A stretch of 21,089 bases of DNA, from positions 1 to 21,089 of IMG/VR virus record IMGVR_UViG_3300032224_000224. One strand, given 5' to 3'. Both the position numbers and the translations under genes were made by a program. Source of the DNA: a virus. Below are positions 4,800 to 19,278 of the stretch, piece after piece; position 1 is the stretch's first letter; each line of letters starts with the position of its first letter. The notes under the pieces are model-generated. The model worked only from the letters and a program-made list of their open reading frames with translations, was not told the origin of the DNA and did no database searches.

Positions 4800-5114
4800 A
4801 TGAAACTCTTTAATTCTGACGATATAAGATATACGGTAGCTCACGATCTTGGTGATGGTGAGTTAGTTTTAGAAACCAAGCAGAATGTAGATCAATACAT
4901 CGAGCGTAACAAGGTTCTTCAGGAAGTAGAGTTACATAGAACTAAACCTGTAGGCGATGTTCACTTAGTTGCATCTATTCCTTTTACGGTTATTGACGAA
5001 CTCAATAAACAAGGGATAATGAAGGGCTATGCCGTAACTGACGAAAAGCGGTTTAAGGCATGGTTAAATCATCCAGATCAACAAGCGTGGAAAATTTACA
5101 GGGGTAAATTATGA
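4800..5114 (+). CDS. Uncharacterised protein downstream of the capsid gene
   Basis: A 104-residue soluble protein with no signal peptide or membrane segment. A GGAG site lies 4 bases before the ATG, just after the post-capsid hairpin. The protein is mixed alpha/beta and basic at the C terminus, with an N-terminal DDIRYTVAHDLGDGELVLET strand region and a C-terminal FKAWLNHPDQQAWKIYRGKL. I do not recognise a characterised family. It overlaps the glycosyltransferase gene by 4 bases (ATGA), so the two are probably translated together. Position between capsid and adaptor genes suggests a head-associated or capsid-modification role, but nothing in the sequence proves it. Confidence 0.75.
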   Translation: MKLFNSDDIRYTVAHDLGDGELVLETKQNVDQYIERNKVLQEVELHRTKPVGDVHLVASIPFTVIDELNKQGIMKGYAVTDEKRFKAWLNHPDQQAWKIYRGKL

Positions 5115-5764
5115 GAGTTGGTGTTTGTATTCCTTGCAGGGACGAAGTTCATACAGGTTTTGCTTTCGATTTTGCTCGTATGGCGGCACACGATGCTTCC
5201 GTTAGGTGCAAAAACGGTAAAGGTGGATTAAGTCTTTATACAATGCCTGGCACATTGATATTCGACCAGCGTGAGAAATTAGCTAAGGTTGCGATGGATG
5301 AGGGTTGTGATGCTATCTTATATATTGATAGCGACATGAGATTCCCTCCTGACATCATAACGATAATGCTAAGTCGTGAGGTTCCTATTGTTGGCGTAAA
5401 TGCAGTTACACGCAGACATCCAGTGACACCAACGGCAAAGCTGCTAACAAAACGTGAGGAAGGTGATAAGACTGTTTATCATTGGGAAAACATTGATTCT
5501 CGTGGCAAAGAAGGTTTAGATAAGATTACTGCGGTAGGTTTTGGTGCTGTAATGATTCGTGCTGAAGTATTTAAGAACGTGCCACAGCCGTGGTTTGATG
5601 CAGGATGGGGGCCAACTGGTGTTGTCGGTGAGGACGTACATTTCTGCGTTAAGGCTGGTGATAACGGTTTTGATACTTACGTGGATCATGAGTTATCAAT
5701 GCACATAAAGCATATTGGTACGCATGAATATAGTTGGAAAGACTTTGAGCAATTAGAGGAATAA
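5111..5764 (+). CDS. GT-A-fold glycosyltransferase, family 2-like
   Basis: A 217-residue protein with features of a nucleotide-sugar-dependent GT-A glycosyltransferase. It has an N-terminal VGVCIPCRDEVH strand-turn, then QREKLAKVAMDEGCDAILYI leading into the metal-binding DSD (residues 73-75) and MRFPPDII. GFGAVMIRAEVF (143-154) matches the acceptor-side segment, GEDVHFCVKA (173-182) is the usual acidic ED pair, and H198/H201 near the end could be metal or phosphate ligands. No membrane anchor or signal peptide is visible, so it should act in the infected cell's cytoplasm. Donor and acceptor are unknown: a virion protein, DNA or a host glycan are all possible. It overlaps the upstream unknown gene by 4 bases and sits among head genes, which makes virion glycosylation an attractive but unproven idea. 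Confidence 0.85.
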   Translation: MRVGVCIPCRDEVHTGFAFDFARMAAHDASVRCKNGKGGLSLYTMPGTLIFDQREKLAKVAMDEGCDAILYIDSDMRFPPDIITIMLSREVPIVGVNAVTRRHPVTPTAKLLTKREEGDKTVYHWENIDSRGKEGLDKITAVGFGAVMIRAEVFKNVPQPWFDAGWGPTGVVGEDVHFCVKAGDNGFDTYVDHELSMHIKHIGTHEYSWKDFEQLEE

Positions 5765-5765
5765 T

Positions 5766-6380
5766 ATGTCATTTGCGAGCTATTCAGATTTCAAGACAAC
5801 AATTGCTAACTATTTAGCTCGTAGTGATTTAACTTCAGTAATCCCAGACTTTATCCGTTTGGCTGAGTTACGTATAGCTCGTGAGATACGCACTCGATTG
5901 ATGTTAAAGATAGTGACTACCGATACTACTGATGCTTTAGTTGGACTTCCTTCTGATTTCTTAGAGATGAGGGACATCCATCTAGTTACTAATCCACTAT
6001 CTGCGTTATCGTACAATACTCCTAATACTTTCTACAAAGACAATCTGGCTAGTATTGTTGGCAGACCTAAGATTTACACGGTTCTGGCTACTGAAATAGC
6101 ATTTGCTCCTTCTCCAGATACTACCTATACCGTTCAGATGCTCTATTACGCTAAACCAACGCTTCTGAGCGACACAAACTCAAGCAACATACTTCTAGCT
6201 AACTATTATGATGCACTTCTCTACGCCACGTTAGGTGAAGCAGAGCCGTATCTAATGAATGATGCTAGATTGCAAACATGGGCTGCTATGTATCAGAAGG
6301 CTATTGATGCGATTAACTTAGCAGATCATTCAAGCGAACATAGTGGTCAACCAATTGCAATGTCCTATAACGTGAGGTAA
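5766..6380 (+). CDS. Head-tail adaptor (P22 gp4/SU10 adaptor-like)
   Basis: A 204-residue protein matching podovirus adaptor proteins, which bind the portal ring and form the platform for the tail nozzle. The N-terminal part is helical (a SYSDFKTTIANYLARSDL stretch, then IPDFIRLAELRIARE). A beta segment follows with LVGLPSDFLEMRDIHLV and a short turn, then YTVQMLYYAKPTLLSD, NILLANYYDALLYATLGEAE and a long C-terminal helix. This helix-beta-helix layout with a YYDALLYAT-like motif is typical of SU10-type adaptors. A strong GAGGAA Shine-Dalgarno precedes the ATG. Its place after the capsid genes and before the tail genes agrees with the assignment. Confidence 0.85.
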   Translation: MSFASYSDFKTTIANYLARSDLTSVIPDFIRLAELRIAREIRTRLMLKIVTTDTTDALVGLPSDFLEMRDIHLVTNPLSALSYNTPNTFYKDNLASIVGRPKIYTVLATEIAFAPSPDTTYTVQMLYYAKPTLLSDTNSSNILLANYYDALLYATLGEAEPYLMNDARLQTWAAMYQKAIDAINLADHSSEHSGQPIAMSYNVR

Positions 6381-6382
6381 TT

Positions 6383-6769
6383 ATGTCAGAAATGTCCAAC
6401 TACCTAGAAAATGCTCTAGTCAACGCTACCTTGCGTAACACGGCATTTACTAGCCCAGCTACTGTTTATCTGGCTTTATACACTACAGATCCAACTGATG
6501 CTGATACAGGCACTGAGGTAACTGGTGGATCGTATGCTCGTCAGTCTATTACGTTTGGTGCGCCAAGTAACGGTGTATCTACAAATAGCGTAGCTATTGA
6601 GTATCCACAGTGTACAAGTACATGGGGAACTGTTACTCATATCGGTATTCGTGATGCGTTAACCACTGGTAACTTGCTGTATCACACTCCGCTAGATGTA
6701 TCTAAGACAATATCAACTGGTGATATATTTAAGATAGCTATAGGTAGCCTTAGCGTAACCTTAGCGTAA
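6383..6769 (+). CDS. Small beta-rich tail/head-associated protein of the phage tail-fibre-like family
   Basis: A 128-residue protein of a type widespread in tailed phages and often labelled tail fibre protein. It has an N-terminal SNYLENALVNATLRNTAF helix, then SPATVYLALYTTDPTDADTG, GGSYARQSITFG, WGTVTHIGIRDALTTGNLLY and a final beta strand ISTGDIFKIAIGSLSVTL. The pattern suggests a compact beta-sandwich. Its exact virion position is not established for this family as far as I know; decoration, tail or fibre base are possible. It starts 3 bases after the adaptor stop and has a GAGG Shine-Dalgarno. Confidence 0.75.
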   Translation: MSEMSNYLENALVNATLRNTAFTSPATVYLALYTTDPTDADTGTEVTGGSYARQSITFGAPSNGVSTNSVAIEYPQCTSTWGTVTHIGIRDALTTGNLLYHTPLDVSKTISTGDIFKIAIGSLSVTLA

Positions 6770-6779
6770 GGGGTAAGCG

Positions 6780-7280
6780 ATGGCACTAGTTGTAGCGGAT
6801 CGTGTCAAGGAAACATCTACCACTGCTGGCACTGGTACGCTAACGCTCGCTGGTGCTAGTTCAGGTTTCCAGTCCTTTGCTGTTATTGGTAACGGTAACA
6901 CTACCTATTATTCTATTGTAGACAATACTGCTAATGCGTGGGAAGTAGGTATTGGTACGTACACATCGTCAGGTACTACGTTATCTCGTGATACGGTTTT
7001 ATCAAATTACTTAGGAACTACGGCTAAAATTTCATTTGCAGCTAATAGTAAGGACGTATTCGCTACGTATCCTGCTGGTAAGGCTGTATATCAAGACTCA
7101 ACTAATACAGCGTACTCAAACCAATTAGCAGCATCTAACGGTATTGTAATAAATAATAATACTGTTAGTTCAAACTTTACAATACCTACTGGTTATTCTG
7201 CCATGAGTACTGGCCCTATTTCTGTAAATAATGGTATTAGTGTAACTGTACCTAACGGATCAAGATGGGTGGTTCTGTAA
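6780..7280 (+). CDS. Fibre-like protein with an ADRVKET N-terminal domain and a C-terminal GSRWVV module
   Basis: A 166-residue beta-rich protein. Residues 1-104 carry a domain common in aquatic phages: MALVVADRVKETSTTAGTGT, a GFQSFAVIGNGNTTYYSIVD stretch, WEVGIGTYTSSGTTLSRDTV and VFATYPAGKAVY. Residues 122-166 form a separate Asn/Ser/Thr-rich C-terminal module ending in VTVPNGSRWVVL. That same module closes the 192-residue fibre gene at 15625. It is predicted to be a tail-attached or fibre protein, probably trimeric. No enzymatic motif is visible. An AAGGGG Shine-Dalgarno precedes the start, and the next gene begins directly after the stop codon. Confidence 0.75.
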   Translation: MALVVADRVKETSTTAGTGTLTLAGASSGFQSFAVIGNGNTTYYSIVDNTANAWEVGIGTYTSSGTTLSRDTVLSNYLGTTAKISFAANSKDVFATYPAGKAVYQDSTNTAYSNQLAASNGIVINNNTVSSNFTIPTGYSAMSTGPISVNNGISVTVPNGSRWVVL

Positions 7281-8186
7281 ATGTTTGGCTTTTCAGCATA
7301 CTCGCAAGCTCCTTACTCGTCATTAGGTGGGTTGCCTGCTAATTATGTTGCTGGATCTGCGATAGTAGATGGAACTGCTACTATTACAGCTTTAGGCGGT
7401 ATATTAAATAACGCAGTCGGAAGTGTAAACGGAGCTGCACAAGTAACTGCAAATGGCACAAGGGTTCAGTTCTTTTCTGGGTCTGTTAACGGTGCTGCTA
7501 ATGTAGCTGCATTTGCCACAAGAGTCCAACTTGCTTCTGGTTTTATTGATGGTACTGCAACAGTAGCAGCAAATGGAATAAGAGTCCAACTTGCTGCTGG
7601 AGCTATTAATGGAACAACATCTGTAACTGCACTAGGTGGTGTTATTTATAACGCAGCCGGAAGAATTATAGGAACCGCTACAATAACTGGACTGGCAAAT
7701 GTTATTTATGCTGGTGTTGGTGTTGTTAATGGTACTGCAACTGTAAATGCTGATGGAATAAGAATTCAGCTTGCTGTTGGTTCTATTAATGGCACGGCTA
7801 CAGTAACAGCGAATGGTACTAGAGTTGCTTTGGCGGCTGCTGACATACTTGGAACTGCATCCGTACAGGCAATTGGTGGTGTGCAATACAATGCAGACGC
7901 TGCAATTAATGGATCTGCTGCTCTTATCTGTTTACCTAATGCTATGTGGGCAGGATTAAGTAGGATAAATGGAACAGCTAATTTTACTGCTAATGCTCAA
8001 GTTCACATTATTGGTGATGAGTGGACTGTAGTTATAGATGACGTAAATATTTGGACAGTAATTCCTGACGATACAAATGACTGGATTGAGGCTAGTCCTA
8101 ATTCTGATGTTTGGACAGTAATTCCTGATGATATAAATATATGGGCTAATACTAGCCCTAATTCTGATACTTGGACAATACAATAA
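7281..8186 (+). CDS. Repeat protein: eleven 20-residue repeats plus a Trp-periodic tail (probable beta-solenoid)
   Basis: A 301-residue protein made almost wholly of repeats. After a short head (MFGFSAYSQAPYSSLGG) a glycine recurs at residues 31, 51, 71, 91, 111, 131, 151, 171, 191, 211 and 231, so eleven repeats of 20 residues run without any insertion or deletion. The consensus is roughly G-T-A-x-V-x-A-x-G-x-R-V-x-L-A-x-G-x-I-N. Two subtypes can be told apart: ANGTRVQLA-like and ALGGVIYNA-like. The last 54 residues switch to a Trp-rich pattern with Trp at 248, 258, 268, 278, 288 and 298. Such regular short beta repeats suggest a beta-solenoid or fibre shaft. It lies between a fibre-like gene and the nozzle gene. 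The function is unknown; a tail appendage is the best guess. The stop codon overlaps the next ATG (TAATG). Confidence 0.8.
   Translation: MFGFSAYSQAPYSSLGGLPANYVAGSAIVDGTATITALGGILNNAVGSVNGAAQVTANGTRVQFFSGSVNGAANVAAFATRVQLASGFIDGTATVAANGIRVQLAAGAINGTTSVTALGGVIYNAAGRIIGTATITGLANVIYAGVGVVNGTATVNADGIRIQLAVGSINGTATVTANGTRVALAAADILGTASVQAIGGVQYNADAAINGSAALICLPNAMWAGLSRINGTANFTANAQVHIIGDEWTVVIDDVNIWTVIPDDTNDWIEASPNSDVWTVIPDDINIWANTSPNSDTWTIQ
7371..8030 (+). repeat. Eleven in-frame 60-bp repeats coding for 20-residue units
   Basis: The 660 bases encode residues 31-250 of the repeat protein. Each unit is exactly 60 bases and starts with a GGN glycine codon (7371, 7431, 7491 and so on to 7971). The third, fourth, seventh and eighth units keep recognisable shared DNA words such as ATAAGAGTCCAACTTGCT. 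The others have drifted strongly at the DNA level while keeping the protein pattern and the exact length, which argues for selection on the protein period. Confidence 0.85.
8052..8171 (+). repeat. Two near-identical 60-bp tandem copies (WTVIPDD unit)
   Basis: Two direct tandem copies, 8052-8111 and 8112-8171, share TGGACAGTAATTCCTGA at their starts and CTAATTCTGAT near their ends. They encode WTVIPDDTNDWIEASPNSDV and WTVIPDDINIWANTSPNSDT. A further partial unit (TGGACAATA) follows at 8172. The close DNA similarity points to a more recent duplication than that of the eleven upstream repeats. Confidence 0.85.
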
Positions 8187-9601
8187 TGGCTAAGATTCAA
8201 TTCGGTGAATGGCTACCAGATCAGCCTGGCGTAACAGGAGCATTAACAGATGCTGTTAATTGTTATCCTGTAGCAAACGGATATGCTCCATTTAAATCAG
8301 AAACTAATTATTCTAACGATGCTGCTGCTGACTTATTAACTGTATTTGCAGGTAAATATGCAAACTCAGTAAGTCTATTTGCTGGATCTGGATCTAATTT
8401 ATACAAATATAATCCAGGTACTAAGAATATGGATTCAGCCAATACCACTGGCTATACTTCTATTGAATATTGGGATAACACTCAGTTTGGATCTAAAATT
8501 ATTTGCGCCAACGGTGTAAATAGACTGCAATCATATACGTTAAATTCAAGCACATACTTTGCTAATTTATCCGCAGATGCTCCGCAAGCTAAATATGTAA
8601 GCACAATTCGTGACTTTGTTGTGGCTGCTAATGTATCTGGTTATGAAAATAAGATTTATTGGAGTGACATTAATAACGAAACCAACTGGACTCCTAGCAC
8701 AACAAGTCAAGCAGACAGTCAAGTATTGCCTGATGGTGGAGATATTATAGGATTAGCTGGTGGTGAGTTTGGAATTGTGTTCCTAGAACGTGCTATTTAC
8801 CGTATGTCTTACGCAGGTAGCCCATTATTCTTCCAGTTTGATGCAATTAACACTAAATTAGGTTGTATAGCTGCTGGATCTATTGCTCAGTTTGGTGGAT
8901 TGGCATATTTCTTAGGCACTGATGGCTTTTATGTATGCAATGGACAAGATACTAAGTCAATTAGTGACAATAAAGTAAGTAAATGGTTCTTTAGTAATGC
9001 GACATTAGAAAATATTAATAACACAATGTCATCTGCTGTAGATCCTATCAATAAATTAGTAATTTGGTGCTTTAAGTCTCAGTCTGGTGGGTATTATTTA
9101 TTAACTTATAGTATTACTTTAAATAAATTTACATATTGTTTAACATCAGCATATTCAGTAAATTCTGCATTAACTCCTTCTATTAGTTTAGATGATTTAG
9201 ATGGGTATAGTTCAAGTATTGATGCGCTAACAGTATCGCTAGATGATCGTCAGTGGTCAGGTAACCAGTTAATTTTTGCAGGGACATCGGCAAAAAAAGT
9301 AATTACATTTGGTGGCGCAAATAAGACTGCATCTATCGTTACTGGTGACATTGATTCAGGTCGTACAGTGATTAATTTAGTACGTCCTACGGTTGACGGT
9401 GGTAGCGGATCGGTGCAAATAGCAAGCAGAACTCAATTAAGTGACCCACTAGTATTTGGCGATGCGTCTGTAGCTGACGCAGAGGGTCGCTGTAGCGTTA
9501 GAACAGCAGGGTACTACCATAGGATCAAACTAATCCCATCGGGCAACTGGGTAACTGCTGTAGGTCTTGATGCCAATATCATAGGTCAAGGTTCAAGATG
9601 A
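8186..9601 (+). CDS. Tail nozzle / DNA stabilisation protein, P22 gp10-like beta-propeller
   Basis: A 471-residue protein starting at the ATG that overlaps the previous stop (TAATG). An upstream in-frame TTG at 8171 would add MDNTI but has no ribosome site. The N terminus IQFGEWLPDQPG, then LTDAVNCYPVANGYAPF, is the standard opening of podovirus nozzle or DNA-stabilisation proteins. Repeated blade-like strands follow, e.g. VSLFAGSGSNLYKY, STIRDFVVAANVSGYENKIY, WSDINNETNWTPSTT, IGLAGGEFGIVFLERAIYRM and GGLAYFLGTDGFYVCNGQDT. Such proteins (P22 gp10, functionally T7 gp12) attach under the adaptor and form the short tail tube that plugs and then guides the DNA. The gene overlaps the next by 4 bases (ATGA). 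Confidence 0.85.
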   Translation: MAKIQFGEWLPDQPGVTGALTDAVNCYPVANGYAPFKSETNYSNDAAADLLTVFAGKYANSVSLFAGSGSNLYKYNPGTKNMDSANTTGYTSIEYWDNTQFGSKIICANGVNRLQSYTLNSSTYFANLSADAPQAKYVSTIRDFVVAANVSGYENKIYWSDINNETNWTPSTTSQADSQVLPDGGDIIGLAGGEFGIVFLERAIYRMSYAGSPLFFQFDAINTKLGCIAAGSIAQFGGLAYFLGTDGFYVCNGQDTKSISDNKVSKWFFSNATLENINNTMSSAVDPINKLVIWCFKSQSGGYYLLTYSITLNKFTYCLTSAYSVNSALTPSISLDDLDGYSSSIDALTVSLDDRQWSGNQLIFAGTSAKKVITFGGANKTASIVTGDIDSGRTVINLVRPTVDGGSGSVQIASRTQLSDPLVFGDASVADAEGRCSVRTAGYYHRIKLIPSGNWVTAVGLDANIIGQGSR

Positions 9602-15624: not shown

Positions 15625-16203
15625 ATGGCAAAAACAAAGATCAGCGAATACAGCTCAACAGCAGCAAATAATACTGATATTAACGGTATTAACATAGGTG
15701 AAGGTTGCTTACCTAGCAATATCAATAATGCAATACGTGAGTTAATGGCTGAGTTAAAGAATCAGCAGGTAGGTACATCTAGCGATGACTTTACTATTGG
15801 CGGTACTTTAACTGCATCAGGTGCAACGGTCATAGGAAGCACGTCAACGTCATCAGTAACGATTAACGCAGCTAGTGTAAGTGTACCTACTGCTTTCACA
15901 ATAAATAGCACAGGAGCTGTTAAATTACCTGTAGGAACGACTGCTCAAAGACCATCGGCTTCAGTAGGTCAGATCAGATATAATTCTACTTTGTTAATAC
16001 TTGAGACTTATGATGGTGCTAATTGGTCTGCTGTAGCTGGTGCAACTGGCGGTGCAGGAGCAATATTTGAAAATAACCAAGTAATTAACTCTAATTATAC
16101 GATTACAACTGGTAAGAATGGAATGAGTGCTGGCCCAGTAACATTGGCTTCAGGTGTAACGGTAACAGTTCCTAGCGGTAGTCGCTGGGTAGTAGTAGGA
16201 TAA
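15625..16203 (+). CDS. Tail fibre protein, virion-anchoring type N terminus
   Basis: A 192-residue protein. Residues 1-50 (KISEYSSTAANNTDINGINI, then EGCLPSNINNAIRELMAELK) match the N-terminal region of podovirus tail-fibre proteins that joins the fibre to the tail. Residues 100-140 (LPVGTTAQRPSASVGQIRYN, then LETYDGANW) are a GTTAQRP-type fibre domain common in phages. Residues 149-192 repeat the C-terminal module of the 166-residue protein at 6780, ending VTVPSGSRWVVVG. The protein is short for a complete fibre, so the following genes probably supply the distal parts. It lies directly after the ejection genes. Confidence 0.8.
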   Translation: MAKTKISEYSSTAANNTDINGINIGEGCLPSNINNAIRELMAELKNQQVGTSSDDFTIGGTLTASGATVIGSTSTSSVTINAASVSVPTAFTINSTGAVKLPVGTTAQRPSASVGQIRYNSTLLILETYDGANWSAVAGATGGAGAIFENNQVINSNYTITTGKNGMSAGPVTLASGVTVTVPSGSRWVVVG

Positions 16204-18041: not shown

Positions 18042-18400
18042 TGACTTCAGTCGTTGACGGAACAAATATTACTGATTCTTACGGAAACGTAAGAACAATT
18101 CCTCAATCGGGAAGTGATAAAACTACGTCTTACACATTAGTTACGACAGATGTGGGTAGATTGATTGGCGTTGGCAGTGGTGGAAGTGTAACAATTCCAA
18201 ATGCTACGTTTTCAACTGGTGACGCAATATCTATCTTTAACAATACCACTGGCAACATTACGATTACTTGCACTATTTCATCTGCATATATTGGCGGGAT
18301 AAATACTGTTAAATCTACCGTCACATTAGCAACCAGAGGTGTAGCAACAATATTGTTTATAAGCGGTACTGTTTGCGTTATTAATGGGAACGTTTCGTGA
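18041..18400 (+). CDS. Short beta-repeat fibre-like protein
   Basis: A 119-residue protein without charged clusters, rich in Thr, Ser, Ile and Gly. The sequence TTSYTLVTTDVGRLIGVGSG, then VTIPNATFSTGDAISIFNNT and GNITITC, is a module found in phage fibre and appendage proteins, where it forms a small beta barrel. It overlaps the upstream gene by 1 base and the downstream glycine-rich gene by 4 bases (GTGA), so the three are probably translated together. It may be a separately encoded domain of a larger fibre. Confidence 0.65.
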   Translation: MTSVVDGTNITDSYGNVRTIPQSGSDKTTSYTLVTTDVGRLIGVGSGGSVTIPNATFSTGDAISIFNNTTGNITITCTISSAYIGGINTVKSTVTLATRGVATILFISGTVCVINGNVS

Positions 18401-19278
18401 GTGGAATAATGATGCTGTTGTTGGCTGGTGCTGCTAGTCCACCAACATCAATTGATTATTTGGTTGTAGCTGGCGGTGGTGGTGGTGGAACGCAAGGCGG
18501 TGGCGGTGGTGCTGGTGGTGCTAGAGTTAACGCATCAGCTTTTAATGTTTCATCTGGAACGTCTTACACAGTCACAATTGGTGGCGGTGGAGCAGCAAAT
18601 ACAAACGGATCAGATTCTGTATTTTCAACCATTACTTCTACGGGTGGCGGCAAAGGCGGTGGTGCGTTATTAACCGTAAACGGATCGTCAGGTGGATCAG
18701 GCGGTGGTGCAGCGGTATCAGCAACCACAGGCACAGGTGGCACAGGTAATACGCCAAGCACAAGCCCATCACAAGGTAATAATGGTGGTGGAAATGCCGG
18801 TAATAATGCTCGATATGGCGGTGGTGGTGGCGGTGGATCTGCTGGCGTTGGCGCAACCGGCACTTCATCGGCTGGTGGTAATGGCGGTAATGGTACTGGC
18901 TTTGCAATAAATGGCGGTACTTACGCAGCCGGTGGTGGTGCTGGTATTTTTACAGGTGCGCTGCCAGCTGTAGTCACAGCCGGTACAGGCGGTTCTGGAA
19001 TCGGTGGTAATGGCTCAATAGGTAATGCAAACGCAACATCTGCCGGTGCAAATACTGGTTCAGGTGGCGGTGGTTCAGGTACTAACGTTGGCACTGTTGG
19101 TTCTGGTGGCTCAGGTATTGTGGTTATTTCTTATCCTGCTTCTAATGCAAATTTAGCTAGTGTAGGTGCAGGATTAACTTGTAACGGTAGCGCAGGAAAT
19201 ACTGTGCCAGATACCACAACTAGCCCAGGCTATAAACTTTATACATTTACAGCAGGTACAGGTTCAATTTCTTGGTAA
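18397..19278 (+). CDS. Polyglycine-rich adhesin-like tail protein
   Basis: A 293-residue protein of which roughly residues 24-245 are dominated by Gly runs with Ser, Thr, Asn and Ala. The opening YLVVAGGGGGG motif (residues 21-31) and the closing GGSGIVVISYP motif mark a known type of phage tail protein. Glycine-rich segments form polyglycine-II helix bundles in some phage adhesins, such as the tip protein of Salmonella phage S16; by analogy this could be the receptor-contacting tip. The C-terminal 50 residues (NGSAGNTVPDTTTSPGYKLY, then TFTAGTGSISW) are a short beta domain. The start is taken as the GTG overlapping the previous stop, 6 bases after GGGAA; ATGs at 18409 and 18412 are alternatives that drop only 4 or 5 residues. 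Confidence 0.75.
   Translation: MSGIMMLLLAGAASPPTSIDYLVVAGGGGGGTQGGGGGAGGARVNASAFNVSSGTSYTVTIGGGGAANTNGSDSVFSTITSTGGGKGGGALLTVNGSSGGSGGGAAVSATTGTGGTGNTPSTSPSQGNNGGGNAGNNARYGGGGGGGSAGVGATGTSSAGGNGGNGTGFAINGGTYAAGGGAGIFTGALPAVVTAGTGGSGIGGNGSIGNANATSAGANTGSGGGGSGTNVGTVGSGGSGIVVISYPASNANLASVGAGLTCNGSAGNTVPDTTTSPGYKLYTFTAGTGSISW

Follow-up and report, generated by a model that had tools for sequence, protein, structure and literature searches.

Introduction

Repeat-built viral fibre shafts include the triple beta-spirals of adenovirus and reovirus, which carry one conserved glycine or proline per repeat, the adenovirus repeats being about 15 residues long. In beta-solenoids, the rise per coil is about 4.8 Å. 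In the tail of Kuravirus SU10, a dock loop of the nozzle protein carries three tryptophans (W839, W847 and W857) arranged in pseudo-threefold symmetry, each of them contacting one chain of the short-fibre trimer (PMC9509320); the three residues were confirmed at these positions in the SU10 sequence. The tail of GP4-type podophages includes gp80, the fibre I protein (PDB 8jou). Here we compare with these systems a repeat protein encoded in a 21,089-base virus record (the window, meaning the whole stretch of DNA analysed).

Results

The window shares its portal, capsid and adaptor families with SU10: its genes encode SU10-type portal, scaffold, major capsid and adaptor proteins, and next to these come genes for a protein like gp80 of GP4, for a small fibre-like protein, for the repeat protein and for a nozzle/stabilisation protein. 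The genome carrying the repeat gene is that of an SU10/GP4-like podophage. All the genes of this segment lie on the plus strand: the adaptor gene (5766–6380; PF24175, E=3.5e-30); the gp80-like fibre I gene (6383–6769; PF23140, E=4.3e-52; PDB 8jou, E=2e-16); the gene of a small fibre-like protein of 166 amino acids (6780–7280; phrog_5342, tail fiber, E=4e-7), also present in many relatives and separated by zero bases from the repeat gene; the repeat gene itself (7281–8186; 301 amino acids, one copy); and the nozzle/stabilisation gene (8186–9601; phrog_3287, E=5e-63; PDB nozzle chains 8zkk and 8zkm), whose ATG, as read from the sequence, overlaps the stop codon of the repeat gene. The gp80-like gene, located next to or near the repeat gene, is what the window has in common with the GP4-type tail; no chain of 8jou matches the repeat-protein profile. 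The repeat gene lies between adaptor and nozzle, as expected for a component of the tail-fibre apparatus, and at the related loci displayed with their neighbours it also sits in the fibre cluster, usually with a gp80/fibre gene on one side and a nozzle or other fibre gene on the other. This conserved position makes a tail-fibre role likely, and the protein is presumably located in the virion.

Three other observations concern further genes of the window. A protein encoded amid the virion structural genes (5111–5764), 63–86% identical in many relatives, gave weak glycosyltransferase-like matches (PF13632, E=0.003; phrog_1574, E=2e-18). With their C-termini, the small fibre-like proteins encoded at 6780–7280 and 15625–16203 match one end of phrog_5342, the same 47 residues in both cases. 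The second fibre cluster encodes a glycine-rich protein of 293 residues (18397–19278; phrog_2295), which we take to be reminiscent of gp38-type adhesins.

The repeat protein, whose composition is biased (Ala/Thr/Gly/Val-rich), comprises three parts. Its short N-terminal module (residues 1–19, MFGFSAYSQAPYSSLGGLP; 7281–7337) is a putative attachment end on the tail: MFGFSAYS, P11 and S13 do not change across 17 relatives, while the N-termini differ in other relatives. Two of the latter (L030:1331-2218 and L038:1588-2802) begin with other sequences (MADLLPPWTIDSLDNLKSSIDDLTLTLDS... and MPVPMTLEELDVYGSLENVPYSLDN...), which include an LD-rich motif like a stretch of the window nozzle protein (SISLDDLDGYSSSIDALTVSLDD); the resemblance may reflect a common motif for attachment. 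Residue 31 follows about half a unit, and from there eleven 20-residue units extend to residue 250 (7371–8030). A preliminary description of this DNA had reported a glycine at every 20th residue from 31 to 231, and it is present in 11/11 units, with zero indels. Mean BLOSUM62 self-similarity reaches 1.56 at a lag of 20 residues and 1.15 at a lag of 40, compared to a maximum of 0.22 at any lag in 1000 shuffles, which places the register well outside chance expectation. The first ten units are canonical; unit eleven (231–250) is canonical in its first half only, and its second half already includes W248, which belongs to a separate C-terminal repeat. The DNA of most units has diverged, as was also described (pairwise identity of 28–80%, the closest adjacent pair being units 3 and 4, with 75%), and third-codon-position identity between units averages 39%, indicating that most of the copying is old.

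Scanning IMG/VR yielded 18 loci and then, with an alignment-based scan, at least 455 relatives, the best 80 of which were kept; 84 distinct proteins, including that of the window, were analysed. Homologues were found in the OM43-clade phages Venkman (gp51) and MEP401 (gp59). The family-profile search of nine records found a match in each of them, always in one gene only, and in the window record 7281–8186 is the sole gene of the family. Bacterial and archaeal genome contigs, scanned with one short N-terminal pattern only, gave no relative, and literature searches returned no paper on this repeat-protein family. Some family members bear misleading GenBank names (L020 gp51 and L022:10001-10777; putative E3 ubiquitin-protein ligase HERC6 and serine-rich adhesin).

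A free fit of the units produced spurious spacings of 14 and 26 residues, and a fixed-register test was used instead. When the register is set at the C-terminal end, a single exact 20-residue register extends over 7–17 units (17 in L080) in 77 of the 84 proteins. The remaining seven (L011 and L013–L018) carry a small insertion at a single place, a one-residue insertion being tolerated in one clade, and Venkman has one 21-residue unit. MEP401 gp59, with 27% identity, keeps exactly 20 residues across nine consecutive units. Judged from these sequences, the 20-residue period is not absolute, yet it does not vary freely; the free variation of unit length around 20, named beforehand as evidence against a structurally fixed coil, did not appear in the 84 proteins. 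Next to gp59, the adjacent MEP401 gene gp58 (L021:3671-4794 for the pair) shares its N- and C-terminal motifs (RITE... and YVK..GxW), the 20-residue array being present in gp59 only; these modules seem to have been reshuffled.

The array changes its length in whole units, as the preliminary description had proposed: proteins that are 88–93% identical show a length difference of exactly 80 residues or a pair of 40-residue gaps (L038, L048, L049 and L057 compared to L031 and L064). The closest relative among the matches listed (L001), whose neighbouring proteins are 66–99% identical to those of the window, is shorter than the window protein by four units, by a pair of Trp repeats and by two further residues when both are compared in register. 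The absent segment corresponds to units 1–4 (7371–7610, plus strand; subtypes B A A A), with units 2–5 fitting equally. Unit 1 of this relative has 76% DNA identity to window unit 1 and equally to window unit 5, the pattern that recombination between these two window units would leave. Among the 84 distinct relatives, the length varies mainly in the N-terminal run of A-type units.

Unit subtypes were scored by position 11, type A being defined by Arg or Lys. The order in the window is B A A A B B A A B B B, which reproduces the order given previously for units 1–10 and differs at unit 11, described as A and scoring B here. The subtypes, described earlier as mixed, are not freely so: BBAABBB or ABBAABBB ends the array in many relatives, preceded by a variable number of mostly A units. 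This common C-terminal order and the variable run before it make the subtypes largely positional.

Across 519 distinct units, positions 5, 12 and 19 hold an aliphatic residue or Phe in 98%, 87% and 100% of cases, respectively, and positions 1, 3, 7, 9, 15 and 17 hold small residues in 83–96%; the most variable positions, read as outward, are 2, 8, 10, 13, 14, 16 and 20. The array therefore has the fixed-length repeat with in-register core positions characteristic of beta-solenoids, and the 7-7-6 spacing of the core positions suggests a three-sided coil. The AlphaFold model of the full protein had regular strands in each unit (pLDDT 55). A second model, built from an alignment closer to the register (A4) after dropping the mixed-register alignment A3, in which MAFFT had added gaps, had very regular short strands (pLDDT 63, pTM 0.54); strand boundaries disagree between the two models. 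The monomer predictions thus contain the regular coil-like strands whose absence would have spoken against a solenoid, although at low confidence.

Foldseek searches with these models gave zero significant matches, viral matches being weak too; the leading PDB matches were mostly beta-solenoids. Weak matches to single-chain beta-solenoids (LpxD-type left-handed helices, tapirin, ice-binding proteins, CsgA, pectate-lyase-like helices) share a similar coil-like strand pattern, but none is significant and the 20-residue 7-7-6 coil differs from the hexapeptide and pentapeptide patterns. A hexapeptide (left-handed) or pentapeptide solenoid was rejected (no Pfam match; aliphatics at 5, 12 and 19, not at every 6th or 5th position), as was the putative adhesin fold of 3ljy and 4opw (3ljy: E=8e-4 with alignment A1, no single stretch passing; E=0.024 with the cleaner profile A4). 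Neither the window protein nor its alignment retrieved a convincing family from Pfam, PHROG or PDB sequences. The relative L038 has matches in two unnamed phage families, phrog_7964 (E=3e-16) and phrog_5070 (E=4e-14), but PHROG gave no match at E<=0.1 for the window protein itself. The earlier remark that no characterised fold is assigned to this protein holds for Pfam, PHROG and solved structures, no family of which covers it. The solenoid proposed at that time agrees with the residue pattern and with the AlphaFold strands, tempered by the low model confidence and by the Foldseek result; the modelled array is likely a beta-solenoid.

The C-terminal region (residues 246–301; 8016–8183, plus strand) contains a second repeat, absent from the preliminary description, with a 60-bp tandem duplication: six tryptophans exactly 10 residues apart (248, 258, 268, 278, 288 and 298). 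In the relatives, 385 of 385 Trp spacings equal 10 in a chain search that permitted 9–11. In most relatives the tail contains 4 or 6 Trp, and the single protein with 5 (L016) is truncated by the end of its contig; tandem duplication of 60 bp in the tail may account for 4 or 6, and not 5. In MEP401 gp59 the C-terminal repeat is of another kind and contains three Trp, and the product of the adjacent gene, gp58, resembles gp59 at its C-terminus but lacks a long array, which suggests that the Trp tail is a module of its own. The Trp tail alone found no match in the PDB.

The three Trp about 8–10 residues apart that characterize the SU10 dock have their counterpart in the six Trp, spaced by 10, of the window protein. 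Both would be extended segments with Trp about 10 apart, but the SU10 loop lies inside the nozzle beta-propeller whereas here the Trp repeat ends a protein of its own that carries a long array. There is no SU10-like Trp triplet in the window nozzle, nor in the other window proteins tested, which makes the Trp tail of the repeat protein a candidate fibre dock. By analogy with SU10, it may dock a trimeric fibre or tip; 4 or 6 Trp have no simple match to a trimer, and the dock idea leans on a non-homologous loop.

Discussion

We propose, with a probability of roughly 0.5, that the repeat protein is a beta-solenoid spacer that changes its length in whole coils and carries a Trp docking peptide, in the tail-fibre apparatus of an SU10/GP4-like podophage. 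The N-terminal module would probably attach the protein to the tail; residues from about 20 to 240 would form the solenoid, with one 20-residue unit per coil and a core lined by the aliphatic positions 5, 12 and 19; and this solenoid would serve as a rigid spacer. Coil length would be fixed by the structure, and coil number free to change, because each coil stacks on the next. At about 4.8 Å per coil, the 7–17 units would span roughly 3.4–8 nm, and the 11 of the window about 5 nm. Whole 60-bp units would be gained or lost when similar units recombine or slip against each other, mostly in the direction of the N-terminus, and the 10-residue Trp repeat would be an extended peptide holding a trimeric fibre or tip, comparable to the SU10 nozzle dock loop. 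Both functions, spacer and dock, are what we infer from this arrangement. The fibre shaft suggested previously is plausible but incomplete, the protein having also an N-terminal module and the C-terminal Trp repeat.

The same array could be read as a trimeric shaft made of three chains wound around each other (a triple beta-spiral or triple beta-helix), each 20-residue unit then being a step along the trimer and not a coil of a single chain. Most phage fibres are trimeric, the gene sits in a fibre cluster, and poor monomer prediction is what a three-chain fold would give; however, regular repeating strands appear even in the monomer models, the three evenly spaced core positions per unit suit a single-chain coil, and the Pfam shaft families give no match. 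The window protein and the adenovirus and reovirus shafts are both repeat-built, but the unit here is 20 residues long and matches no Pfam family. We regard a trimeric shaft as less likely than a single-chain solenoid. Another reading is a receptor-binding solenoid, an adhesin that recognises the surface of the host through its own outer face, with unit number and surface residues determining specificity and not reach. The concentration of variation at the outward positions (2, 8, 10, 13, 14, 16 and 20) and the weak sequence match to the putative adhesins 3ljy and 4opw would be in line with it, but the 3ljy match weakened from E=8e-4 to 0.024 with the cleaner profile, the long N-terminal A-type runs resemble filler, and the conserved C-terminal Trp tail points to the attachment of something else; we consider an adhesin improbable.

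The low model confidence and the biased composition might also reflect a low-complexity Ala/Thr/Gly/Val-rich protein without defined coils, its register held only by recent 60-bp copying, some adjacent units being indeed alike in DNA (75% for units 3 and 4). The third-position identity, only 39% on average, the aliphatic positions kept in 87–100% of the 519 distinct units and the persistence of the register down to 27% protein identity make this reading very improbable.

The protein constitutes a new family within a familiar type of system, that of phage tail fibres and adaptors, with hundreds of members in IMG/VR (at least 455). More tentatively, and with considerable doubt, it might represent a new phage beta-solenoid class: a 20-residue three-sided coil (7-7-6) forming a modular spacer that evolves in length by whole coils towards one end, plus a Trp peptide, itself repetitive, for the capture of trimeric fibres, used as a separate docking adaptor across many uncultured aquatic podophages. 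If the spacer reading is true, related phages provide one fibre spacer in a natural series of lengths (7 to 17 coils), through which the link of fibre reach to adsorption becomes testable. The Trp tail, in turn, would suggest that fibres are exchanged on a common tail via a short generic docking peptide and not through a dedicated interface.
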